A stretch of DNA of 64,000 bases from Acrocarpospora corrugata. GTDB lineage: Bacteria; Actinomycetota; Actinomycetes; Streptosporangiales; Streptosporangiaceae. The number at the start of each line of letters is the position of its first letter. Within the stretch, counting starts at the first letter, position 1. Positions 22,354 through 46,517 of this stretch are shown here, one piece after another. Both the position numbers and the translations under genes were made by a program. The notes under the pieces were generated by a model. It searched no databases and had not been told where the DNA came from. It saw nothing but the letters and a program-made list of their open reading frames with translations. Where the stretch lies: contig NZ_BLAD01000036.1 in the NCBI RefSeq assembly GCF_009687845.1, positions 124,001-188,000 of the forward strand. Direction: 5' to 3'.

Positions 22354-23115
22354 GTGCGTATTCTGACTTTGCTGATCAGTGGCCTGCTCGGTGCCACTCT
22401 CCTCGCCGGACCGGCTCAGGCCGCGCCGGTTCCCACCGGCAAGGCCGCGCTCACCCAGAACCCGCTGTACAAGACGGGCGAGTTCGACTGGACCGAGTGC
22501 GTCGAACTGGACCGGCGGCCGGACGACCTCAACTCCTACCAGCTGTACCTGGATCACCTGCTCGACTGCCTGGACCGCTCCTGGTCGGAGGAGTTCGCGC
22601 AGGCCGGGCTGAAGTTCAGCAAGCCGAAAGTCCGCTACATCACCAAGAGTGTGGCCACCGGCTGCGGCAAGTACCCCATCAACTACGCGGCCGGTCTGTA
22701 CTGCCCGGTCAACAAGACGATGTGGGTGGCCATCAGCAAGTGGCAGCTCGCCGACCCCGACGAGTTCACCCTGTTCAACGTGATCGCGCACGAGTACGGG
22801 CACTACGCCCAGGATCGGGCCGGCATCCTGCCGGCCGCCATGCGCCTGCAGAAGAAGGCCCCCAAGGCCAGGCAGTACGCGATCCAGCGCCAGGTCGAAC
22901 TCCAGGCCGAGTGCTTCGCGTCCGCGTTCATCGGCAGCGTCTGGCACTCGCTCGGCCGTGAGGAGTTCGACTTCCAGGACCTGATGGACCTGACCTACGG
23001 CGACGTGCTGCACGGCAAGACCAAGAACATCCGCTACTGGATGAAGCGGGGCTGGGACGGCAACGGCCCGAAGGTGTGCAACACCTTCACCGCGCCGGCG
23101 TCACGGGTCTCCTGA
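22354..23115 (+). CDS. Secreted neutral zinc metallopeptidase, paralogue 1
   Basis: 253-aa exported protein with a signal peptide cleaved near AQAAP (residue 24). The zinc site HEYGH lies at about residue 149 in NVIAHEYGHYAQDRAGIL, with a downstream glutamate in QVELQAECFASAFIGS as third ligand, the pattern of the 'putative neutral zinc metallopeptidase' family. Conserved cysteines (CGKY, LYCP, KVCNTF) probably form disulphides. The GTG has only a weak AGG upstream; the promoter geometry suggests a near-leaderless mRNA. It is paralogous to 30885-31709, and together they bracket the GTPase/kinase block. Its end overlaps the convergent GAP1 gene by 15 bp. Confidence 0.85.
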   Translation: MRILTLLISGLLGATLLAGPAQAAPVPTGKAALTQNPLYKTGEFDWTECVELDRRPDDLNSYQLYLDHLLDCLDRSWSEEFAQAGLKFSKPKVRYITKSVATGCGKYPINYAAGLYCPVNKTMWVAISKWQLADPDEFTLFNVIAHEYGHYAQDRAGILPAAMRLQKKAPKARQYAIQRQVELQAECFASAFIGSVWHSLGREEFDFQDLMDLTYGDVLHGKTKNIRYWMKRGWDGNGPKVCNTFTAPASRVS

Positions 23116-25260
23116 GTCTGAGTCCTTCTTCTTCGAATCCTTCTTGTCGCTGGGCTTCCCCGACGGTGTGACGCCGTCGGGGGAGTCCTGGGCGCTGAAG
23201 GTCGCCGCCGGCGTGTACTGCGGCTGCGAGGTCTGGGTCTCCACCGGCGGCGTCACGGCGGGATCGCCTCGGTCGCCGAACAGGATCACCAGCGCGACCG
23301 TCACGGCGAACAGGATCAGCACGATCAGGACGAACACCGTCCAGCCCGACAGGGTGTGCGGCAGCCACCCGCGAAGCCTCCCGCCCAGGCGCCGGGCTCG
23401 GCCCTCGCCGGGTTCCCTGTCCTCCTGTAAACTCATGATCGGGTTGAGCGGCGGCCCGCCGGACGTCTTGCCGAAGGAGTGAACCGGGGAGGTCGTCCGG
23501 CGAATCGGCGGGCTCTCCGGACTCACCACGACAGGCTCGGGCGCACGCATCGCCGCCTCCAGCCGGGCCACCTCCGCCTTGGCCAGCCCTTCCGCGCGGA
23601 GATAGTCGCTCACGGCGGCGCGGACCGCCTCGCCCGAGTCCTGACCGGCCAGATCCAGGGCGGCGGCCAGCAGCGGGCCCTGGCCGGGCTTGAGCGGGAA
23701 CCGCACGATCCCGGTGAAGTCCCGGACGCCGAGGGCGGGGCCGTACGCCGCGGACAGGAGCTTTCTGAGCTTGTCCTGCTGGAGTTCTGGCCGGTGCGGG
23801 AGGGCGACGGCGAGGGGAGCGGCCAGGTGACCGACATCCCGCAGCGCGGGAGCCAGATCCGTGTCCGAACGGCTCTCACCGCGCCGGACCAGCTCCTCGT
23901 GCACGGCCAGGACCACCTGTGCGTCGATCGGCTGCCGCCCGGCCGCCCTGACCACCTCGGGTGTCGGCGGCTTGTCCAGGGCGCGGAAAAGATCGGCGCC
24001 ACCGAGCCTGCTGGCCAGGTAGAGGGAGACGGCGAGCTCGTGGGCCGGCATGGCGTAGAGGGTGTGCAGCAACCGGCGGGACGGGACCTCGATCTGGCCG
24101 ATCACGTGCTGCAGCCCGGCCATGGTGAGGGCCGGGCCGTAGGCGACGTCGAGGACCACCTTGCGCGGCTCTTTCAGCCGGACGTCCGTCTGGCACAGCT
24201 GGACGAGCAGCCCGCTCTCCTTGACGATCTCCTGGAAGGCGGCCCGCTCCCCCGCGGCGAAGTCGTTGTCCGCGGCCTCCCGCAGGAACGCGACGGGATT
24301 CTCCAGGTGAGCGAGCTCGCCGCCGGTCAGGTGCTCCGCGCACTCGCGCAGCGCCTGCTCCACCGAGGACCGGTGGATCGGCCGCCGGCGGGTTCCCGGC
24401 CGCACCTCGAACTCCGCCAGGCGGGTCAGCGCCCCATCGCGGCCCTGCGCGTTGAAGGCGCGCTGCTCGGGGTCGGCGGCCAGCCAGTCGATCAGCTCGG
24501 TCAGGTGGGGGGCGCTCCCGGCGAGATGCTCGTAGTAGCTGTGCGCCGCATGGAAGCGCCCGGGAATCGCCGCCTTCTCCCCCCAGACCACCGACCTGGC
24601 CCCGGCGGGCGCGGCGTCGGCGAAGGAGAGCCGGATGGTGTGGTTGACGGCGACGCTGGTCCAGGTGGAGGCCCGCAGCTTGACCCGCAGGCCGTACGGC
24701 AGCAGGGCCGCCACCACGTCCAGGAAGCGCAGCCGCTGCTCGGCCGAGAGCGGGTCGCCGACGATGCAGACGTGCTGGTCGGACAGGAGCAGCGCGGCCA
24801 CGCTCATCGCGGTGCGATCGACCCGCAGCGCCAGCTCGGCGGGGTTCAGGATCGGGACGGCGACGTCCAGCAGCTCGCCGTCGCCGGGGTAGGCGGGATC
24901 GGTCAGGCACTGGTCGAGCGCCCGGTAGAGCCCTTCGTAGGACACCCGGTGCTCGGCCAGCTGCCGGTAGGGCACGCTGAAGTAGCGGGTCGCCGCGATC
25001 CCCCTGCCGCTCCGGTCGGCCTGGTCCGACCAGCGCCGGATGATCAGCATGAGCCGGGCGTTGTCGCCGGCCCCGACCCAGCCGAGGGTGATCTGCGGCA
25101 GCTGGCGGGGGGTGCCGGTCACGTACTCGGCTCTGACCTCGGCGAAGCTGGCGCGGTTGAGGGGGCCGCGGCTGCACGCGATCAGGCCGTACTCGTCGTT
25201 GCTGCCGGGCTGCTTTCCCTCCACCGCCCATTCGACCCGCAGGCGCACGTCGCGGCTCAT
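23101..25260 (-). CDS. GAP1-like (GTPase-associated protein 1) membrane-anchored protein
   Basis: 719-aa protein. The N-terminus (RLRVEWAVEGKQPGSNDEYG LIACSRGPLNRASF, then FSVPYRQLAEHRVSYEGLY) resembles the GAP1-N domain described for proteins encoded beside TRAFAC-type GTPases in predicted bacterial conflict/signalling systems. A long helical middle part follows. Near residues 640-665 is one strong membrane helix (WTVFVLIVLILFAVTVALVI), then a Thr/Pro/Lys/Asp-rich tail (KKDSKKKDSDSGDP) that would lie outside the cell. The ATG at 25260 overlaps the GTPase stop as ATGA, making a coupled pair. No enzymatic motif is visible; it probably senses, scaffolds or executes the output of the GTPase. Confidence 0.65.
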   Translation of the reverse strand: MSRDVRLRVEWAVEGKQPGSNDEYGLIACSRGPLNRASFAEVRAEYVTGTPRQLPQITLGWVGAGDNARLMLIIRRWSDQADRSGRGIAATRYFSVPYRQLAEHRVSYEGLYRALDQCLTDPAYPGDGELLDVAVPILNPAELALRVDRTAMSVAALLLSDQHVCIVGDPLSAEQRLRFLDVVAALLPYGLRVKLRASTWTSVAVNHTIRLSFADAAPAGARSVVWGEKAAIPGRFHAAHSYYEHLAGSAPHLTELIDWLAADPEQRAFNAQGRDGALTRLAEFEVRPGTRRRPIHRSSVEQALRECAEHLTGGELAHLENPVAFLREAADNDFAAGERAAFQEIVKESGLLVQLCQTDVRLKEPRKVVLDVAYGPALTMAGLQHVIGQIEVPSRRLLHTLYAMPAHELAVSLYLASRLGGADLFRALDKPPTPEVVRAAGRQPIDAQVVLAVHEELVRRGESRSDTDLAPALRDVGHLAAPLAVALPHRPELQQDKLRKLLSAAYGPALGVRDFTGIVRFPLKPGQGPLLAAALDLAGQDSGEAVRAAVSDYLRAEGLAKAEVARLEAAMRAPEPVVVSPESPPIRRTTSPVHSFGKTSGGPPLNPIMSLQEDREPGEGRARRLGGRLRGWLPHTLSGWTVFVLIVLILFAVTVALVILFGDRGDPAVTPPVETQTSQPQYTPAATFSAQDSPDGVTPSGKPSDKKDSKKKDSDSGDP

Positions 25261-26255
25261 CGGCCGTTCCCGGGTTTCAGCTGATCAGCGTAGATCTGCT
25301 CGGCCAGCCAGGTGACCGGTTCGCGGACGTTGATGGGCCTGGCCTGGCCGCGGATCTCGAATTCGGTGGAAGGCTCCCGGCCGTTCGTGCCGTCCTGCGG
25401 TTTCCGAACCATATTCTGGTAATCGCGGGGATTGAAACCGCGCGTGCCCGGCTTGAGATAGAAGCCGATCGACGAGGTCACGAAGAACTTGATGCGGTCG
25501 GGCCGGAAATACTGCTCCAGCGCGCCCATGACGAATTCCGCGCTGCCGCTGGCCGAAATGTCGCAGAGATTGTGGAACAGCGTCTGCGCGTTCTCGTCGT
25601 CCACCGCCGGGAAACCGTGCGGATCGTCCGGATCCGTGGTGACGAGATTCAGCTTCTCGGCGGTCTCCAGCACCCGCCGGTCGTCGAATTTGGTGATGCA
25701 GACGGCCAGATAGTGCGGGAGCCGCCCGTCGGACGGGGCGTCCTCGGCGAGCATCCTGCTGGCCAGCTGGATCAGCGCGCCGTGCAGGTACTCGAAGGCG
25801 TTCCCGTCCTCGAATTCGCGGATCGGGTCGAAGAGGTAGACGATGCCCCGGCTCCGCTGCAGGTTCTCCAGCAGCTTCGCGTGATCGGCGGGCCGTTCCT
25901 TGTCGGTGTACACCCCGCCCGGCGGATCGATCAGGTTGAGGCCGACCCGGGGCGCCGGCATCGTCCTGGCCTTGCCGTTGAACCGCCCGGCGAACCGTTT
26001 CTGCAGCTGGACCGGGTCGCCGAGGAGCAGCCACCTGAACCGTTCTATGTCGATGGTGGCCGGCGGGAACTCCCGCCGGGCCAGCGCCGCGGACTTGTCC
26101 CGCAGGATCTCGATCGACGCAGGATCGGTGCCGACCAGCCGCCAGGGCCCGCGCCGCTGCAGCAGGGCGAAACTGAGGGCGGCCAGCAACGTGGTCTTGC
26201 CGCTTCCTGGGGCTCCCCACATGGCGATGTGGTCGGAGTCCTCCTGCTCGGACAT
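25257..26255 (-). CDS. TRAFAC-type P-loop GTPase of the GAP1 system
   Basis: 332-aa NTPase. Walker A/G1 is GAPGSGKTT (residues 14-22). The G3 Asp-x-x-Gly lies in LNLIDPPGGVY, and a G4-like TKFD occurs in YLAVCITKFDDR, pointing to GTP rather than ATP. Further conserved-looking stretches are GIVYLFDPIREFE and FVTSSIGFYLKPG near the C-terminus. There is no transmembrane helix. The ATG at 26255 is preferred over a GTG at 26267; spacing does not decide clearly. It is the middle gene of the operon vWA-like, GTPase, GAP1, with ATGA coupling to GAP1. The family occurs in predicted immunity or signalling islands; its biological trigger is unknown. Confidence 0.75.
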   Translation of the reverse strand: MSEQEDSDHIAMWGAPGSGKTTLLAALSFALLQRRGPWRLVGTDPASIEILRDKSAALARREFPPATIDIERFRWLLLGDPVQLQKRFAGRFNGKARTMPAPRVGLNLIDPPGGVYTDKERPADHAKLLENLQRSRGIVYLFDPIREFEDGNAFEYLHGALIQLASRMLAEDAPSDGRLPHYLAVCITKFDDRRVLETAEKLNLVTTDPDDPHGFPAVDDENAQTLFHNLCDISASGSAEFVMGALEQYFRPDRIKFFVTSSIGFYLKPGTRGFNPRDYQNMVRKPQDGTNGREPSTEFEIRGQARPINVREPVTWLAEQIYADQLKPGNGR

Positions 26256-26283
26256 CTGTTTCTTCACTCCACTCGGTTGATGA

Positions 26284-27693
26284 TCACATCAGGGGAAAGT
26301 TGATCCGCTGGTCCCGCGCGGCCAGGCCCAGCGCGGTGCCGAACGCCGGGATGTCGACTGAGGACAGGTCGGCCAGCGCGGCCCGCCCCAGGCGGAACCA
26401 CTCGGGACCGGCCTGGTCGGCCGGACGGTCGCAGATCACGCCGAGCGTCGCGCCGGGGCGGCTCTCGAACCGGAGCGCCAGCTCCTCCCAGTCGTGCTCG
26501 TCGGGGCACGGCAGGATGTGCGAACGGGCGTACGGCGGATGCGGCGGACGCCCGCCGACGATGAGCAGCGCGGTGTGGTCGCCGCCGTGCTCACGCCCGA
26601 GCCCGTCGAGCACCTCGGCGAGCATGTCCTCCACCTGGGCGCCGTCCGGATAGCCCGGCCGGACGGTCAGATCGAGCCGGAGCCGGGTCAGCGCGTCCAG
26701 GGACCTGGCGGGGTCCGCCGCCCATTCGAGCACCCTGACCGGCTCCTGCTTGGCCTTGAACTCGTAGGCGTGCGCGCCGTAGGTCAGGAGCGAGACCCGG
26801 AGCCGCCCGGGGAGCCGCCCGGCCGCCTCCTTCACCATCTGCTCGGCCCGGTCCAGCCGGTCCCCCACCGTGTACGCCTCACCGCACGTCTCGATCGCGC
26901 AGATCAGATGGGACGGCGACGCGTGCGGCCGCCAGTGACCGGGGACCGACGCGATCAGGTCGGACCAGTCCCGCCGGTCGGGGGCGAGCCCGCTCAGGCC
27001 GGTCAGGCGCACCCGCCCGGGGGCGCGCAGTTCCGCGGTCAGCTCGTGCGCGCCCGGCGGAAGCGCGGCGGCGTGCAGCGAGAGCAGGTCAGGGGTCTTG
27101 CCCTCCCAGGCCACCACGGCGAACGCGACGCCGGCCGGGTCGCTGAACTCGCAGTGGAACGGCACCCCGACGGTGTCCCCGCGCCTGGAGCCGATCGGGA
27201 ACAGCGGGTGGCCGGCGAACTCCAGCCGGCCGGAGCCCGGCGCGCGGGTCAGCACGACCAGGTCGTAGGAGAGGGTCAGCGGGTCCTCGGCCATGGCCCG
27301 GCGCAGCAGCGCCGTCAGGTCGGCCCCCGGCGCGGTGCCGGCGGCGGCGTCCGGGCGGGCTTCGCGCAGCCAGGCCAGGGCCTGGTCGGTCGCGCCACCG
27401 GCGTGGGTGACGACCAGGAGGGCGGGGCCGCCGCCGGTGGCCGCGAGCATGTCGAGGATCGCGTTCCTGGCCGGTTCCGGGTCGGCCGCCCAGCCGTACT
27501 CGCCGCCAGGGCCGGGCCAGGGCCGCACCGGCTCGACCCAGCAGCGGGGAATGCCCGCCTCGTCGCGGCTCAGCTGGTAGACGACCAGCCCCGCCGCACC
27601 CAGCTCCAGCACAGCCAAACGCCCAGAAGTGACGATTCCGGCAATCGACCCAGCAAGTGCGTTACGCAGCAATTCATCGCCAGAATCAGCCAA
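26284..27693 (-). CDS. vWA-like protein of the GAP1/GTPase operon
   Basis: 469-aa soluble protein that I recognise only by architecture. An N-terminal alpha/beta region (RLAVLELGAAGLVVYQLSRD ...) and an Ig-like middle (PGAHELTAELRAPGRVRLTG) precede a C-terminal Rossmann-like domain beginning HLICAIETCGEAYTV GDRL, with LLTYGAHAYEF and TALLIVGGRPPHPP. Its strand order resembles a von Willebrand A domain, but the metal-binding DxSxS is degenerate (IETCG). The TTG start has AGGGG at 5 nt. It is first in the operon, immediately downstream of an AT-rich control region with the palindrome TCATATATGA. A sensor or adaptor role is an inference. Confidence 0.5.
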   Translation of the reverse strand: MADSGDELLRNALAGSIAGIVTSGRLAVLELGAAGLVVYQLSRDEAGIPRCWVEPVRPWPGPGGEYGWAADPEPARNAILDMLAATGGGPALLVVTHAGGATDQALAWLREARPDAAAGTAPGADLTALLRRAMAEDPLTLSYDLVVLTRAPGSGRLEFAGHPLFPIGSRRGDTVGVPFHCEFSDPAGVAFAVVAWEGKTPDLLSLHAAALPPGAHELTAELRAPGRVRLTGLSGLAPDRRDWSDLIASVPGHWRPHASPSHLICAIETCGEAYTVGDRLDRAEQMVKEAAGRLPGRLRVSLLTYGAHAYEFKAKQEPVRVLEWAADPARSLDALTRLRLDLTVRPGYPDGAQVEDMLAEVLDGLGREHGGDHTALLIVGGRPPHPPYARSHILPCPDEHDWEELALRFESRPGATLGVICDRPADQAGPEWFRLGRAALADLSSVDIPAFGTALGLAARDQRINFPLM

Positions 27694-27907
27694 AGTGGCC
27701 CCTACCGCCCTTTAACGACATTTCATATATGAGCGAATTTGACATCCAGCCCCCGCCGAATGATCACATTGCACGAAATAGCAAACTATGACCTGCTACA
27801 TAATACTTTTCGGAGCCATGTTATGATGCCTCAGTTTTCGGGAAATCCGTAACGGTACGAACAGCTAAATCGGGCGGCGCCTGATCAACCAGAACGGACA
27901 TTCTGGA
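27694..27907. promoter_or_regulatory. AT-rich divergent control region of the GTPase/kinase block
   Basis: This 214-bp gap is visibly AT-richer than the surrounding genes and separates the GAP1/GTPase/vWA operon from the DUF4407/kinase operon. A perfect 10-bp palindrome TCATATATGA lies at 27723-27732, 30 bp before the vWA start. A TATGAT hexamer at 27822-27827 could be a -10 for the rightward operon. Exact promoters are uncertain. Confidence 0.5.
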
Positions 27908-29314
27908 ATGGATCGCATTAAAAGGTTCCTGGTTGCCCTGTCCGGCGCCCGCCCGGAAGTCCTTCGGCGCTGCCCCACGGAACAGGGCAAATTCGAGGGC
28001 ATCGGCGGCGCCGTGCTCACCACCGCCGTCCTCGCCGTCATCTCCATGACATTCGCGCTTTCCACCGCCCTCGACGTCCCGCTGCCGCTGGCCATTCCCG
28101 CCGCCCTCATCTGGGGCACCGCGATTCTGGGCCTGGACCGCTGGCTGGTCAGCACGATGCGCTCGGACGGCGGGCGCAAGTGGGGCATCGCGCTCCCCCG
28201 CATCCTGATGGCCGTGCTCATCGGCTTCGTCGTGTCGACCCCGCTGGTGCTCCAGATCTTCGACTCCGAGATCGAGGCCAGGATCGTCCAGATCAAGCAG
28301 GCGCGGGCCAACGAGTTCGCCCGCCAGCAGCAGCAGGACACGATCGGCCAGGACATCACCGCCCTGCGCAAGCAGGTGTCGAACCTCAACAACGTGATCA
28401 GCTCGGACGGCGACGTCGCCATCGACCCCGCCTCCGACCGCAAGTTCAAGACCCTCACCAAGGAGCGGGACGAGCAGCAGAAACTCGCCGACAGCAAGTA
28501 CGCCGAGTGGCAGTGCCAGCTGTACGGCGGCCCAGCCTGCGTCAAGAAGGGCAACGGCCCGCTCGCCCGGGCCAGCGAGACCACCTACCGCAAGGCGCAG
28601 AGCGGCGTCGACAAGCTCAACCGGCAGCTGGAGAACCGCAAGAAGCAGCTCAGCACCACCGACGCGGAGAACAAGGAGGCCCGGCTGGCCCAGGCCAAGG
28701 CCGACCTGCCGAAGGTCCAGACCGAGCTGGACGCGGCCGTCGCCCGCCAGGCCGACCTGCAGCGGCTGGCCGACGCCCAGACCCGGGCCAACGGCGGCCT
28801 GCTGCTGCGGCTCCAGGCGCTGAACGAGGTGTCCGGCCAGGACTTCACCATGCGGGCCGCGCACATCCTGCTGTTCCTGCTGTTCCTGCTGATCGAGTGC
28901 CTGCCGGTGGTGGTCAAGCTGATGATGCGGCCGGGCAACTACGAGCGCATTCTCGGCATGGCCGCGGAGCAGGAGTTCCGCGAGGCCAAGCAGAGCTTCG
29001 CCCGGCGGCCCGGCGTGACCGGCGGGAACTTCGACATCGCGGAGCTCTGGCGGCGGCCGGAGACCGCCGCGCCGCCGGGGCCCGGCCACACGGTTCCGGA
29101 GACTCCACTACCGGAGCCCCCCGAGCCCGAGCCGCGCCCTGATCCTTCGCGCCCTGATCCTTCGCGCCCTGATCCTTTCGGCGTGACCCGTGACCACCGG
29201 TCGCTGGACGACGAGTCCATCCGCGAGATGCGGGACCGGCGGGGCCTGCGGGCGCACGTGCCGGACGGCTCCGACCGGACCAGCGGCTTCGAGCTGTTCC
29301 CCGAGGACGACTGA
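27908..29314 (+). CDS. DUF4407 four-helix membrane protein with large coiled coil
   Basis: 468-aa membrane protein of the DUF4407 family. The N-terminal LSGARPEVLRRCPTEQGKFE is the family signature. Predicted helices are at about 31-52, 56-77, 98-117 and 316-338. Between the third and fourth helix lies an extracytoplasmic coiled-coil region of about 190 residues with a CQLYGGPACVKKG insertion. The cytoplasmic C-terminal tail is Pro/Asp/Arg-rich and includes three tandem RPDPS units. No clear Shine-Dalgarno precedes the ATG. A kinase gene starts 7 nt after its stop, so the pair is co-translated; the acidic tail could be a kinase target, but that is inference. Confidence 0.8.
   Translation: MDRIKRFLVALSGARPEVLRRCPTEQGKFEGIGGAVLTTAVLAVISMTFALSTALDVPLPLAIPAALIWGTAILGLDRWLVSTMRSDGGRKWGIALPRILMAVLIGFVVSTPLVLQIFDSEIEARIVQIKQARANEFARQQQQDTIGQDITALRKQVSNLNNVISSDGDVAIDPASDRKFKTLTKERDEQQKLADSKYAEWQCQLYGGPACVKKGNGPLARASETTYRKAQSGVDKLNRQLENRKKQLSTTDAENKEARLAQAKADLPKVQTELDAAVARQADLQRLADAQTRANGGLLLRLQALNEVSGQDFTMRAAHILLFLLFLLIECLPVVVKLMMRPGNYERILGMAAEQEFREAKQSFARRPGVTGGNFDIAELWRRPETAAPPGPGHTVPETPLPEPPEPEPRPDPSRPDPSRPDPFGVTRDHRSLDDESIREMRDRRGLRAHVPDGSDRTSGFELFPEDD
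29134..29178 (+). repeat. 3 x 15-bp tandem repeat inside the DUF4407 gene
   Basis: The unit GCGCCCTGATCCTTC is repeated three times (29134, 29149, 29164; last base differs) and encodes RPDPS three times in the cytoplasmic tail. A 15-bp period keeps frame, so copy number could vary between strains without disrupting the gene. Confidence 0.85.
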
Positions 29315-29321
29315 ACCCCCC

Positions 29322-30785
29322 ATGAGCTTCGAGAACGACGTGCTGATCGGCGGCGGGCGGTACCGGCCGATGACTCCCCTCGGGGAGGGCGGGATGGGCA
29401 TCGTCTGGCTGGCCGAGGACCTCACACTGCGCCGCCAGGTGGCGATCAAGCGCCTGCGGCCCGAGCACACCACGAAGGAGCAGGAGGACCGGCGGAAGCG
29501 GGCGCTGCGGGAGGCCAAGATCCTCTCCTCCGTCGACCATCCGGCCATCGTCCAGATCTACGACGTGTTCCAGGAGGACGATCACCCCTGCATCGTCATG
29601 AACTACATCGACGGGGACTCGCTCCAGGAGCTGCTGGAGCAGGGCCGGCTGCCGGGCGAGCGGGAGCTGGCCTCGATCGGCCTGCGCGTGCTGGGCGCGC
29701 TGGACGCGGCGCACCGGGCCAAGGTGCTGCACCGGGACGTCAAGCCGGCCAACATCATGATCACCGACGCGGGGGACGTCTACCTGGTCGACTTCGGCAT
29801 CGCGCACATGATCGGCGAGACCAAGCTGACCCGGACGAACAGCTTCATCGGCACGCCCGAGTTCCTGGCTCCTGAGCGGCTGGAGGGCCACGAGCCGGGA
29901 CCGCAGGCGGATCTGTGGTCGCTGGGGGTGACGCTCTACCTCATGCGGGAGGGCCGCTCGCCGTTCCGCCGGGGCGACAACGCGCCCGCCACGATGCTGG
30001 CCATCCTGCGCGACGATCCGCCCCCGGCGCGGCCGGGCCGGCTCGCCGACACCACGGCCAAGTTGCTGGTCAAGGACCCGGGCCGGCGGCTGGACGCCCG
30101 GGGCCTGGCCGCCGAGCTGAAGTCGATCCTGGACGGCACGGGACCGTCCCGGCGGGAGTCCACCCGCCCGGTGGACCTGGGGTCGCTGCCGGCGGCCCAG
30201 GCCGCGCGGCAGGTCGCCGGGCTGCCGGCGGAACTGGCCGGGTCACTGGTGGCGCGGCTGCCGGCCGAGGCGGCGCGGGAACTGCTGCTCGCCGCCGAGC
30301 CGCAGGCGATCGCGAGAATCCTGCTGGCGCTGCCGCCGGGCCAGGCGGGACCGTTGCTGGCGCGGCTGCCGGCCAAGTCGGCGGGCCCGGTGCTGAACCT
30401 GATGGCCGCCGATCCCGGGCGGGCCGCCGCCGTCCTGGCCGTGCTGCCCCCGGCGCGGGTCGGCCGGAGTCTCAGTTACACGGCCGAGCGGCACGCCGCC
30501 GAACTCCTGGCCGCGCTGCCGCCTGAGGACGCCGCCACCGTCATCCGGCGGGTGGACCGCCGGGCCACCGGCGGGATCATCACGGCGCTGGCCGGGACCG
30601 CGCTGGCCGTCCGGCTGGTCGGGACGATGCCGATCGACGAGGCGTGTGACGTGCTGCGGTTCGTGCCGCCCCCGATCACGGCCGCGATCGTCAGGGCCCA
30701 GCCGCCCGATCACGCGGAGAAGCTGCTCAACGGCTTGAGCCCGGCCATCCGCCGCCCGGTGGAACGGCACCTCCAGGCACCCTGA
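29322..30785 (+). CDS. Ser/Thr protein kinase fused to MgtE-N-like helical repeats
   Basis: 487-aa Hanks-type kinase. Intact catalytic features: glycine loop LGEGGMGIVWLA, Lys in VAIKRL, HRDVKPANIMI, DFG in YLVDFGIAH, GTPEFLAPE, and DLWSLGVTLY. It has no transmembrane helix and no PASTA domain. From about residue 285 to the end it has Ala/Leu-rich repeats of about 24-26 residues with the motif LP(A/P)xxAxxLLxx (LPAELAGSLVARLPAEAARE ..., LPPGQAGPLLARLPAKSAG ...), resembling the right-handed superhelix of the MgtE N-domain/FliG-like fold. Starts 7 nt after the DUF4407 stop, without its own ribosome-binding site. Likely a cytosolic kinase recruited by the membrane partner. Confidence 0.88.
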   Translation: MSFENDVLIGGGRYRPMTPLGEGGMGIVWLAEDLTLRRQVAIKRLRPEHTTKEQEDRRKRALREAKILSSVDHPAIVQIYDVFQEDDHPCIVMNYIDGDSLQELLEQGRLPGERELASIGLRVLGALDAAHRAKVLHRDVKPANIMITDAGDVYLVDFGIAHMIGETKLTRTNSFIGTPEFLAPERLEGHEPGPQADLWSLGVTLYLMREGRSPFRRGDNAPATMLAILRDDPPPARPGRLADTTAKLLVKDPGRRLDARGLAAELKSILDGTGPSRRESTRPVDLGSLPAAQAARQVAGLPAELAGSLVARLPAEAARELLLAAEPQAIARILLALPPGQAGPLLARLPAKSAGPVLNLMAADPGRAAAVLAVLPPARVGRSLSYTAERHAAELLAALPPEDAATVIRRVDRRATGGIITALAGTALAVRLVGTMPIDEACDVLRFVPPPITAAIVRAQPPDHAEKLLNGLSPAIRRPVERHLQAP

Positions 30786-30846
30786 ACCCCACCGACCACA
30801 AGGGCATATCTGCCACTATCAGCCTATTCTTGTCTATTTGCGTAAC

Positions 30847-30875
30847 TTTACTCGCATTCTGGCCTGCAATAGGGT
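30847..30875 (+). promoter_or_regulatory. Promoter of zinc peptidase 2 (near-leaderless)
   Basis: TTTACT (30847-30852), 17-bp spacer, TAGGGT (30870-30875), 9 nt to the ATG at 30885. The geometry is identical to that at 22316-22354. Confidence 0.5.
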
Positions 30876-30884
30876 CCTAAAACC

Positions 30885-31709
30885 ATGCGAACACCCCTCA
30901 TCGCAGTTGGCCTCGGCCTCAGTGCCGCCCTCCTGGTCGCGGGTACGGCGCAGGCCCAGGTGGCGCCGGATCGGGCCCCGGTGGCCGCCCCCGCGTCGGT
31001 CACGACGGCCGTCGCGGCGCCCTTCCCCACCGTGCTGTCGAAGAACAAGATCTACCGTTCCGGAAGCGTCGACACGATCGACTGCGCTCCCGCCGAGCCG
31101 CGCCCGGGTAGTGCGGCGGCGGTCAAGACGTACCTGCTGAAGGTGTATCGCTGCGTCAACCAGATGTGGGCGCGGCAGTTCAAGGCGGTCGGCTGGGCCT
31201 ACCGGGTGCCCAAGATCGTCATCAGGACCAGCGGCTACACGACCCCGTGCGGCAAGCTCACCAAGACCTACCCGGCGCACTACTGCTCGCAGCAGCAGAC
31301 GATCTACTGGGTGCTCCAGCGGCAGGACGTCAAGCAGCCGTTCCCGCTGGTGCTGGCCAAGACCATGGCGCACGAGATCGGGCACCACGTGCAGCAGCGG
31401 GCGGGCATCCTGAACCCGTACTACAACCTGGCCTGGAAGGCGCGGACCAAGACGGCCAAGAACCTGCTCAGCCACCGGGTCGAGCAGCAGGCCGAGTGCT
31501 TCGCCGGGGTGTTCATGGGCGGCGCGCAGGACTCGCTGCCGGTGGACTTCGAGGAATGGGACCAGATCAACACCTGGGCCAAGGAGAACGCCACCGACAC
31601 CATGCACGGCAAGGGCGCCAACCAGGTCTACTGGCTGGAGCGCGGTTTCGACTCCGGTTCCCCGGCGGCCTGCAACACCTGGGTCGTCTCGAACGCCCGC
31701 GTGGCCTAG
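30885..31709 (+). CDS. Secreted neutral zinc metallopeptidase, paralogue 2
   Basis: 274-aa exported protein. Signal peptide with likely cleavage after GTAQA (residue 24). Zinc motif HEIGHH in KTMAHEIGHHVQQRAGIL, third ligand region RVEQQAECFAGVFMGG, and conserved cysteines (TTPCGKL, HYCSQQ, AACNTW) parallel those in the copy at 22354. The two share order of blocks but are clearly diverged. No Shine-Dalgarno; a -35/-10 pair places the transcript start about 3 nt upstream. Its stop shares the palindrome CTAG (31706-31709) with the stop of the convergent ROK regulator. Substrate unknown; an extracellular or cell-wall role is expected. Confidence 0.85.
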   Translation: MRTPLIAVGLGLSAALLVAGTAQAQVAPDRAPVAAPASVTTAVAAPFPTVLSKNKIYRSGSVDTIDCAPAEPRPGSAAAVKTYLLKVYRCVNQMWARQFKAVGWAYRVPKIVIRTSGYTTPCGKLTKTYPAHYCSQQQTIYWVLQRQDVKQPFPLVLAKTMAHEIGHHVQQRAGILNPYYNLAWKARTKTAKNLLSHRVEQQAECFAGVFMGGAQDSLPVDFEEWDQINTWAKENATDTMHGKGANQVYWLERGFDSGSPAACNTWVVSNARVA

Positions 31710-44009: not shown

Positions 44010-46517
44010 TCAGAGCCGGGGATCGACCGGTTCCGACTCCATCGCCAGCACGCCGAACACGGCCTCGTGCACCCGCCAGAGCGGCTCCCCGTCCGCCAGC
44101 CGGGACAGCGCCTCCAGGCCCAGCGCGTGCTCGCGCAGCGCCATCGAGCGCTTCCTGCCGAGGAAGCGCCGCCGCAGCACGTCCAGCGACTCGGTGTAGT
44201 CCGGGCCGTAGATGATCCGCAGGTACTCCTGGCCGCGCACCTTGACGCCCGGCTGCACCCGTCCCTCCGGCCGCTCCACCGGCTTGACCACCATGCCCTC
44301 GCCGCCGGCCGCCGTCATCGCCTCCCACCAGGCCACGGCGGCGTCCCTGGACTCCGCCGAGTCGAGCGAGACGTAGACGCGCCTGGTCGGCCCGATCAGC
44401 GGCGAGTCCAGCCGGGCCAGCAGGTCCAGATGCCAGTCATGCGGCTGGTGTACGGCCGTCGCCCGCCCCTCGGCGGCGAGGATCTGGAACGGCGCGAACC
44501 GGACGCCGTCCAGGCCGGAGACCGGCCAGCAGTAACGCGCATAGGCGTCCCTGAACCGGGCAGCGTTGTCCTGACGGCGTCGGGCGCGGTCCAATGTCGA
44601 GCCCACATCCAGTCCGCGCCCGGCCGCCGCTTCCAGCGCCGCGACCACCTCGGGCAGCGCCGCCCCGGCCGCCGCCCCGACCGAGGCGTACTGGCCGCGG
44701 ATCAGGCTCTCCGCCTTCGCCGACCAGGGCAGCAGCTCGCCGTCCAGGACCAGCCAGTCGGTGCCGAGCTCGGCCCAGAGCGGCTCGGCCGCCGCGCGCA
44801 GGCCGTCCACCAGCTCACCCATCAGCGCGCCGAAGAACGGGCGGCCGGTCCGGGTGTACACCATGCCGGCGCCGCCGTCGGCGACCCCGAAGCGCTTCTC
44901 GGCCGCCTCCGGCGTCCTGGCCAGCACGGCCACGGCCCGGGAGCCCATGTGCTTCTCCTCGCACACCACCCGGGTGACGCCGGCGGCGGCGAACTCCTCG
45001 AACGCCTCCGCCGGGTGCTCCAGGTAGCCGTCCAGCCGGGAGGTCTCCGGCGGGGCCATCGTCGGCGGCAGGTAGACCAGCCAGCGCGGGTCCACCGCGA
45101 ACCTGCTCATGATCTCCAGCGCGGCGGCGGCGTTCTCCTCCCTGATCCGGATGGTGCCGCCGAACCGGGTCTCCACGAACCGGTTCCCGCGCACGTCGCC
45201 GATGTCGAGGGCGGCCGGGTCGCGCTGCGGGGGGCCCGCCAGCGGGCGGGCGGGCTCGTACCAGACCTGCTCGGCCGGGACCGAGACCAGCTCGCGCTCG
45301 GGGTAGCGGAGCGCGGTCAGCCGGCCGCCGAAGACGACGCCGGTGTCCAGGCAGATCGTGTTGTTGACCCATTCCGGCTCGACGGTGGGGGTGTGGCCGT
45401 AGACGACCATGGCGCGGCCCCGGTACTCCTCGGCCCAGGGGTAGCGGATGGGCAGGCCGTACTCGTCGGTCTCGCCGGTGGTGTCGCCGTAGAGGGCGAA
45501 GGCGCGGACCCGGCCGGAGGCGCGGCCGTGGTAGGGCTCCTTCAGCCCGGCGTGCGCGACCACCAGTCTGCCCTCGTCGAGCTGGTAGTGGCTGATCAGG
45601 CCGTCCATGAACGCCGTCGCGGCGGTCACGAACTCCGGGTCGGCCTCGCCCAGCTGGGCCAGCGACTCGGCCAGGCCGTGCGCGACCCTGACCTTGCGGC
45701 CGTTGAGCGCGCGCACCAGCTTCTGCTCGTGGTTGCCGCAGACGCACAGCGCGGTCCCGGCCTCGACCATGCCCATCACCCGGCGCAGCACGCCCGGCGT
45801 GTCGGGCCCCCGGTCCACGAGATCGCCGACGAACACGGCGGTACGGCCCTGCGGGTGCCGGCCGTCCTGGTACCCGAGAGTGGAGAGCAGGGTCTCCAGC
45901 TCCGACGAGCAGCCGTGCACGTCGCCGATGATGTCGAAAGGCCCGGTCCGGTGCCGGAGGTCGGTCCAGGCGGGTTCGAGGGTGATCGTCACATTGTCGA
46001 TCTCGGCGCCGCGCAGCACGTGCACCCGGCGGAAGCCGTCCCGGGAGATCTTGCCGAGCGAGCGGCGCAGGTCCTTGTGCTGGCGGGTGATCACGTGCGG
46101 GCCGAAGTCCCGGTCCGGGCGGGTCGCGTTCCGCTCGACCGCCAGCTCGGCCGGCACGTCCAGCACGATCGCGTCGACCAGCACGTTGTGCGCCTTGGCC
46201 AGCGCCACCAGCTGCTGGCGGGCCTGGTACTGCACGCTGGTGGCGTCGACCACGGTGAGCAGGCCGCGCCTGAGCCGGGTGCCGACGATGTGGTGCAGCA
46301 TCTCGAACGCGTCCGGGGTGGCCGACTGGTCGTTCTCGTCGTCGGCGACCAGGCCGCGGCAGAAGTCGGAGGAGATCACCTGGGTGGGGCCGAAGTGCCT
46401 GCGGGCGAAGGTGGACTTGCCGCTGCCGGAGACGCCGACCAGCACGATCAGCGCCATGGCGGGCACGCCGATCTCGCGGGCCACCGGGGGTACCGGCTGC
46501 TCAGGCTGCTCGGACAT
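44010..46517 (-). CDS. pnkp: Polynucleotide kinase-phosphatase-ligase Pnkp (RNA repair)
   Basis: 835-aa trifunctional RNA end-healing and sealing enzyme. Kinase domain: P-loop GVSGSGKS (28-35) and VVDATSVQYQARQQ. Metallophosphatase domain from about 190: IIGDVHGC, FVGDLVDRGPD, CGNHEQ, YGHTP. C-terminal ligase/adenylyltransferase: catalytic Lys522 in CEEKHMGSRAVAV, WLVLDGELLPWS and GEGMVVKP. Bacterial Pnkp needs Hen1 for ligase activity and together they repair tRNAs cut by ribotoxins. Here pnkp follows hen1 with a 17-bp overlap, the standard operon. Length (about 840-870 aa) and all motifs are intact. Confidence 0.95.
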   Translation of the reverse strand: MSEQPEQPVPPVAREIGVPAMALIVLVGVSGSGKSTFARRHFGPTQVISSDFCRGLVADDENDQSATPDAFEMLHHIVGTRLRRGLLTVVDATSVQYQARQQLVALAKAHNVLVDAIVLDVPAELAVERNATRPDRDFGPHVITRQHKDLRRSLGKISRDGFRRVHVLRGAEIDNVTITLEPAWTDLRHRTGPFDIIGDVHGCSSELETLLSTLGYQDGRHPQGRTAVFVGDLVDRGPDTPGVLRRVMGMVEAGTALCVCGNHEQKLVRALNGRKVRVAHGLAESLAQLGEADPEFVTAATAFMDGLISHYQLDEGRLVVAHAGLKEPYHGRASGRVRAFALYGDTTGETDEYGLPIRYPWAEEYRGRAMVVYGHTPTVEPEWVNNTICLDTGVVFGGRLTALRYPERELVSVPAEQVWYEPARPLAGPPQRDPAALDIGDVRGNRFVETRFGGTIRIREENAAAALEIMSRFAVDPRWLVYLPPTMAPPETSRLDGYLEHPAEAFEEFAAAGVTRVVCEEKHMGSRAVAVLARTPEAAEKRFGVADGGAGMVYTRTGRPFFGALMGELVDGLRAAAEPLWAELGTDWLVLDGELLPWSAKAESLIRGQYASVGAAAGAALPEVVAALEAAAGRGLDVGSTLDRARRRQDNAARFRDAYARYCWPVSGLDGVRFAPFQILAAEGRATAVHQPHDWHLDLLARLDSPLIGPTRRVYVSLDSAESRDAAVAWWEAMTAAGGEGMVVKPVERPEGRVQPGVKVRGQEYLRIIYGPDYTESLDVLRRRFLGRKRSMALREHALGLEALSRLADGEPLWRVHEAVFGVLAMESEPVDPRL

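Follow-up and report, generated by a model that had tools for sequence, protein, structure and literature searches.

The window analysed here, a stretch of 64,000 nucleotides of Acrocarpospora corrugata (contig NZ_BLAD01000036.1; the host genome comprises 9.27 Mb in 170 contigs), carries five adjacent genes that are a well-supported functional unit and in all likelihood act together as a single signalling device at the membrane. Three of them encode a GAP1-like protein, a GTPase and a vWA-like protein, and diverge from the other two, which encode a DUF4407 membrane protein and a Ser/Thr protein kinase. We put at roughly 0.62 the probability that this is a membrane-associated module in which a GTPase switch would control the Ser/Thr kinase, with DUF4407 as the membrane partner. 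An earlier sequence-only reading had placed seven open reading frames (ORFs) in 22354..31709, namely these five and a peptidase gene on each outer side; all seven are real and lie at, or inside, the spans that it assigned to them.

The unity of the five central genes, proposed in that reading, is borne out by co-occurrence, conserved order, the reverse association of a DUF4407 subfamily and matching gene trees. Of 200 genomes in the order, queries with the GAP1-like and the vWA-like protein match the identical 58, all of which belong to one family. Neighbourhoods of the 57 other carriers (L062-L118) were taken up to 20 kb (three are shorter, one being a 5-kb contig); in part of them the gene calls come from a codon-position caller, and some antisense calls are artefacts. 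Family models find the GAP1-like protein, the GTPase and the vWA-like protein at 58/58 loci, the last of these by construction since the loci were chosen by vWA-like matches, and DUF4407 at 57/58, the miss being the 5-kb contig. The full divergent order, with GAP1-like, GTPase and vWA-like genes on one side and DUF4407 and kinase genes on the other, is kept at 52 of the 58 loci, including two (L076, L083) at which the kinase is cut by a contig end. Independent distribution of the two operons is strongly disfavoured.

The association also holds when approached from DUF4407. Matches of 260-290 bits to this protein occur in 24 of 101 genomes, all of them module carriers, and other DUF4407 matches reach at most 241 bits; if the 101 genomes are G000-G100 (the 43 matchless ones being unlisted), those 24 are all of the carriers and the other 77 include none. 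Trees were compared for 52 loci with all five genes (the window, its congener G597 and 50 others), with the GAP1-like protein cut to its first 330 residues. All five trees unite the window with G597 (support 0.999-1.0), and L062 (Planotetraspora) joins next in all five, with support of 0.969-0.979 in four, whereas the fifth gives no value. Over the 52 loci, the pairwise distances in the five trees show correlations of 0.87-0.96. The copy in G144, a congener, branches apart from the window in every tree.

Several observations weigh against this interpretation. At L088, L089 and L116-L118 the GAP1-GTPase-vWA trio and a nearby DUF4407 gene are present with no such kinase beside them. A set of at least 28 loci in named genomes was chosen by the GTPase, whose presence is therefore by construction; it contains the GAP1-like gene in 27, the vWA-like gene in 25 and DUF4407 in 18 (several stretches end at contig ends), and the kinase stands beside DUF4407 in 11 of them, some others being cut by contig ends. 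Since the kinase has no place beside the trio or DUF4407 in some loci, it is not indispensable. Agreement among the trees may stem in part from a common history of the species, and the position of the G144 copy is not identical across all five trees. Finally, hhalign comparison of the GAP1-like family with GAP1-N2 proteins (a set that took 32 of 35 loci) scored 16.8 against 25.1 for the best of 31 decoys and is not significant; with nothing above the decoys, membership in GAP1-N2 was rejected.

Among the matches listed, the named loci include Streptosporangium, Microbispora, Herbidospora, Planotetraspora and Actinomadura, and both Frankia loci show the GTPase and the GAP1-like gene only. In a phylum-wide search with a different query, in which four candidates were scored per genome, 3 of 396 genomes, that of the window among them, had the vWA-like family.

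The coordinates of the genes are collected below; the motif named for the vWA-like protein is that of the metal ion-dependent adhesion site (MIDAS), and transmembrane (TM) segments were called by a simple hydropathy threshold.

Features of the module and its immediate flanks (positions within the window)
Feature	Coordinates	Strand	Basis
Secreted-type Zn peptidase A (pepA), left flank, outside module	22354..23115	+	Pfam, congener comparison
GAP1-like protein, 719 residues	23101..25260	-	ORF; GAP1-M traces in relatives; conservation
DO-GTPase-family GTPase, 336 residues; 4-bp overlap with GAP1-like gene	25257..26267	-	Pfam, hhalign
vWA-like protein, 469 residues, without DxSxS MIDAS motif	26284..27693	-	Alignment, hhalign
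AT-rich divergent region, 214 bp	27694..27907	.	Base composition
DUF4407 membrane protein, 468 residues	27908..29314	+	Pfam, TM-like segments
Ser/Thr protein kinase, 487 residues, FliG_M/MgtE_N-like C-terminal tail	29322..30785	+	Pfam, residue alignment
Secreted-type Zn peptidase B (pepB), right flank, outside module	30885..31709	+	Pfam, congener comparison

Within the proposed signalling module, the DUF4407 protein, with its large loop probably outside, would sense or scaffold at the membrane; phage, envelope damage or a developmental cue are candidate signals. The vWA-like and GAP1-like proteins might link its state to the GTP binding and GTP hydrolysis of the GTPase, and the switched complex would then license the kinase to phosphorylate cellular targets, probably with the FliG/MgtE-like tail of the kinase as a docking surface.

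The motifs of the GTPase (GAPGSGKTT, DPPGG and TKFD) had suggested its identity from the outset, and the claim is confirmed by homology to DO-GTPases. The window protein itself is barely above the curated cut-off of the Pfam family DO-GTPase2 (27.4 versus 27 bits), and DO-GTPase2 and DO-GTPase1 are matched by 24 and 23 of 29 family members, respectively (E <=0.01). Aligned by hhalign with 30 DO-GTPase2 matches, two of which are from the window's own genome, the family scores 99% with an E value of 3.9e-18 over 224 columns, covering the whole domain. This profile homology identifies the protein as a true DO-GTPase relative. At the presumed position of the Walker B glutamate, which we equated ourselves via the hhalign alignment, 19 of the 29 sequences have Gly, 4 Glu, 4 Arg and 2 another residue, so that with positions equated in this way the conserved glutamate of DO-GTPases is not kept in the family. 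A CxxC zinc-ribbon pattern was found on none of 59 GTPases. PADLOC gives a weak match of the GTPase to mad8 (E 1.9e-7).

For the GAP1-like protein, described in the sequence-only reading as GAP1-N-like with one C-terminal membrane helix, the helix was recovered (one strong TM-like segment at about residues 642-660, followed by a short polar tail), but neither GAP1-N1 nor GAP1-N2 is matched by the window protein (Pfam, GAP1-N2 at E <=1) or by any of 43 family members (E <=0.01). GAP1-M is matched in 5 of the 43, at best with E 4.9e-4 and not in the window protein, of which residues 137-204 or so align to GAP1-M in a register that is not significant. Three sub-threshold GAP1-M matches (E <=0.01) in 91 genomes all fall in these GAP1-like genes. 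The GAP1 assignment made from these sequence matches is therefore weak, and of the two families expected in 23101-26255, DO-GTPase2 was found there, whereas GAP1-M appeared only in relatives. At the limits used, neither the GAP1-like nor the vWA-like window protein has a Pfam, NCBIfam or PADLOC match.

The architecture of the GAP1-like proteins varies between loci. At 27 of the 57 other loci (L063, L069, L098 and 24 more) there is a single copy whose two TM-like helices enclose a domain of 232-290 residues, an arrangement that fits a membrane receptor role; another 10 have a pair of which one protein has a TM helix and one does not, and the remaining 20 vary. By eye, the 232-290-residue domain resembles a solute-binding fold. 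SBP_bac_11 was matched by 1 of 27 members of this ectodomain, only at E 0.034, and the ectodomain has no significant PDB match; nor have the alignments of the GAP1-like and DUF4407 proteins.

The vWA-like protein had been read as a vWA protein. None of 31 members matches a Pfam vWA model, there is no PDB match, and the DxSxS MIDAS site is absent, the consensus being HLICAVExxG where the motif is expected (our placement, which agrees with hhalign). The family nevertheless aligns with true vWA domains at 29.5 bits in hhalign, above all 32 decoys (best 23.2), so that the vWA label, as a matter of profile similarity, has modest support.

The two divergent genes proved to be what had been proposed, with Pfam E values of 2.3e-82 for DUF4407 and 1.3e-53 for Pkinase. 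The DUF4407 protein has four TM-like segments with a large loop between the third and fourth; the loop, in which Cys203 and Cys211 are invariant in 33 sequences, probably has coiled-coil character and an outer location. The kinase probably starts at the ATG at 29322, 7 bases past the DUF4407 stop, the longest ORF beginning at 29190. Lys43, Glu64, His137, Asp139, Lys141, Asn144 and DFG are kept in 36/36 sequences and Arg138 in 35/36, and the enzyme is predicted to be catalytically active. Its tail matches MgtE_N in all 36 and FliG_M in 24. The best NCBIfam model is PknB_PASTA_kin at 225.6 bits, under the cut-off of 450; the window kinase has no TM-like segment and no PASTA match in Pfam. It matches many PADLOC kinase models (PD-T4-6, mad6 and others).

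The region between the divergent genes is AT-rich by local standards, as had been noted, with 48% G+C compared to 63-76% in surrounding 1-kb windows. A 17-base block, CATGTTATGATGCCTCA, at 27817 is nearly identical in the two nearest relatives, G597 and L062; outside this block the region is poorly conserved over 11 sequences. A sigma-70 scan found no promoter-like site.

The site of the module can be read from its congeners. In G595, G596 and G144 the two peptidase genes adjoin at a module-free site: alignment of these genomes to the window ends at 23111-23116 and resumes at 30835-30861, with 79-95 bases between, and in the gap of G596 an apparent terminator, read from the sequence, follows the first peptidase gene. 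pepB is a tandem paralogue of pepA at the empty site. G597 carries a module with two GAP1-like genes at the same peptidase site, bracketed as in the window. These data fit either insertion of the module between two tandem peptidase genes or its loss from there. Insertion had been suggested before, into a dxs-trmA interval; the idea fits, but no trmA boundary was found, the TrmA family having no match among the 10 flanking window proteins scanned. The left neighbour is a gene that we take to be dxs, and on the right lie, among others, genes for a ROK protein, an aconitase and a sugar-type periplasmic binding protein.

The peptidases had been read as secreted HExxH enzymes on both sides of the module and as its possible extracellular arms. 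Both do belong to Zn_peptidase (E 1.7e-19 and 3.9e-24; PADLOC adds weak matches to capP, E 3.1e-5 and 9.9e-4), but they lie outside the unit because three congeners have them next to each other with no module between, and a role as its arms was rejected on that ground and because they bracket the module in 0/57 of the neighbourhoods L062-L118. There, pepA-like genes occur only in L065 and L066 (E 2.8e-9), at a distance of some 3 to 5 kb from the module. The window genome (G000) has ten matches to the pepA protein, including both flanking genes, and close pairs are present in several relatives. Further away in the window, at 44010-46517, a Pnkp-type RNA-repair protein is encoded, with PNKP ligase, AAA kinase and metallophosphatase domains.

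A search of the congeners with the vWA-like protein gave one match in the window genome and none in G595. G597 has two, one at the site and one at contig C57:201173-202459 (38% identity), G144 has one on contig C7 (42%), and G596 has one distant match at contig C33:146900-147928 (28%, 43 bits). The module proteins of the window and G597 are 48-67% identical and the flanking proteins 74-96%: pepB 74%, a permease 83% (available part), pepA 85%, ROK 88%, dxs 89%, and two ABC proteins 90% and 96%.

Variant contexts occur elsewhere. L064:14225-16945 and L090:2925-5747 contain a vWA-GTPase fusion gene, tail to tail with GAP1-like genes; in L064 the gene next to the fusion carries a caspase-like CHAT domain, and a member of that gene's cluster is found in L090 as well. 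In L139 (Streptomyces) and L189, a kinase gene and a vWA-like gene are flanked by two GTPase and two GAP1-like genes. Downstream of the GAP1-like gene, L138, L139, L188 and L189 encode a protein with a true vWA domain and a secreted-looking N-terminus, and L117 has an AAA protein between the trio and DUF4407.

That the two operons stand back to back by chance is very improbable and strongly disfavoured. At five loci the trio has no such kinase next to it, and other DUF4407 genes exist outside the module, as this explanation would predict, but it is at odds with the canonical order at 52 of 58 loci, with a specific DUF4407 subfamily confined to carriers and with the matching gene trees. More attention is due to the idea, raised in the sequence-only reading, that the module is an immune (conflict) system, in which the GTPase-GAP1 trio would detect an invader at the membrane and the kinase would be a growth-arresting effector. 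The module would then resemble other DO-GTPase systems proposed by Kaur et al.; we consider this a real possibility, though less likely than not. The link to the DO-GTPase family and the weak mad8 match suit it, as do the patchy presence (58 of 200 genomes), the single site that is filled in two congeners and empty in three, the divergence of the window and G597 modules between flanks that are mostly 82-96% alike (pepB being lowest), and the CHAT-domain gene beside the fusion in L064. Rates of conservation cut both ways. In 22 locus pairs from other genera that share at least three flanking genes (pairs that are not independent, with fewer values for some genes), conservation is below the flank mean for the GAP1-like protein in 18 of 20 and for the kinase in 19 of 22, which favours the conflict reading; for the vWA-like protein (7/22), DUF4407 (6/22) and the GTPase (1/7) it mostly is not. 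Fast diversification of the whole module is not supported in these genera, and the stability of these three relative to the flanks counts against fast defence-type turnover. Moreover, single queries, with the vWA-like protein against 72,556 plasmid records and with the GTPase against 50,697 phage records, gave no match, the flanks scanned in the window resemble ordinary metabolic and regulatory genes, and the PD-T4-6 and mad6 matches are, in our reading, what any such kinase may give. What stands of the conflict proposal is the fit of the GTPase family; the GAP1 link is weak, and three genes are stable within genera.

The same stability is expected if the module serves envelope or developmental signalling in mycelial actinomycetes, inherited mostly vertically within genera and with variable sensor parts, a reading that we regard as plausible at somewhat less than even odds. 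The distribution agrees with it, 58 of 200 genomes in the order and in one family only, compared to 3 of 396 over the phylum with the different query, as do the named loci in the five genera given above and the architecture of membrane proteins and ectodomains. It accommodates less easily the patchiness within the window's own genus, where the module is at the peptidase site in two genomes and only elsewhere in one, and two have no clear module gene; such patchiness is odd for a developmental core function.

The interest of the five-gene module lies in its joining a GTPase switch to a kinase whose catalytic residues are intact and to a defined membrane partner, and DUF4407 gains from it a specific gene context. 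Because close relatives offer an empty site and the genes are few, the module is testable by deletion or transfer. As a tentative extension, held at less than even confidence, we suggest that it might represent a third, undescribed class of DO-GTPase system ('GAP1-N3'), in which the GTPase switch would be tied to a DUF4407 receptor and to an active Ser/Thr kinase through a divergent GAP1 and a vWA protein lacking MIDAS, and exchangeable GAP1 ectodomains would set the signal. If so, bacteria would possess a receptor-GTPase-kinase relay at the membrane; to our knowledge, such relays are little known in bacteria.

No description of such a five-gene system was found in the literature covered, preprints and most subscription papers being outside that coverage. 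The closest known systems are the DO-GTPase/GAP1 conflict systems, a computational prediction of Kaur et al. 2020 (PMC7159879). One theme predicted in that paper combines an active kinase, PP2C and vWA, the DO-GTPases have a conserved glutamate in the Walker B motif, and DUF4407 has no mention in the main text. With the DO-GTPase/GAP1-N2 kinase theme as set out there, the window module shares a DO-GTPase-family GTPase, a GAP1-like partner directly downstream, an actinobacterial host, a membrane-anchored GAP1, a vWA-like component and a kinase with intact catalytic residues. It differs in having no GAP1-N2, no FNIII match (fn3 of Pfam, among the seven window proteins) and no CxxC zinc ribbon on its GTPases; in its FliG/MgtE-like kinase tail and DUF4407 partner, no PP2C being seen in the seven central genes or in the 10 flanking window proteins scanned; and, by our placement, in the mostly Gly residue at the presumed Walker B glutamate. 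The same genome provides a second comparison, since two GAP1-N2 systems on contigs C42 and C73 (L185, L186) are likewise GTPase-GAP1 gene pairs, and their GTPases belong to the set that aligns with the window family. They have GAP1-N2 (133 and 83 bits), in contrast to the window protein, and, by our reading of the sequences, Hsp70- and GrpE-like neighbours, unlike the window. With PknB-type kinases the window kinase shares the kinase domain, but in place of a TM-like segment and PASTA it has a helical-type tail. Most likely, the window module is a variant DO-GTPase system that includes DUF4407 and a kinase with intact catalytic residues.

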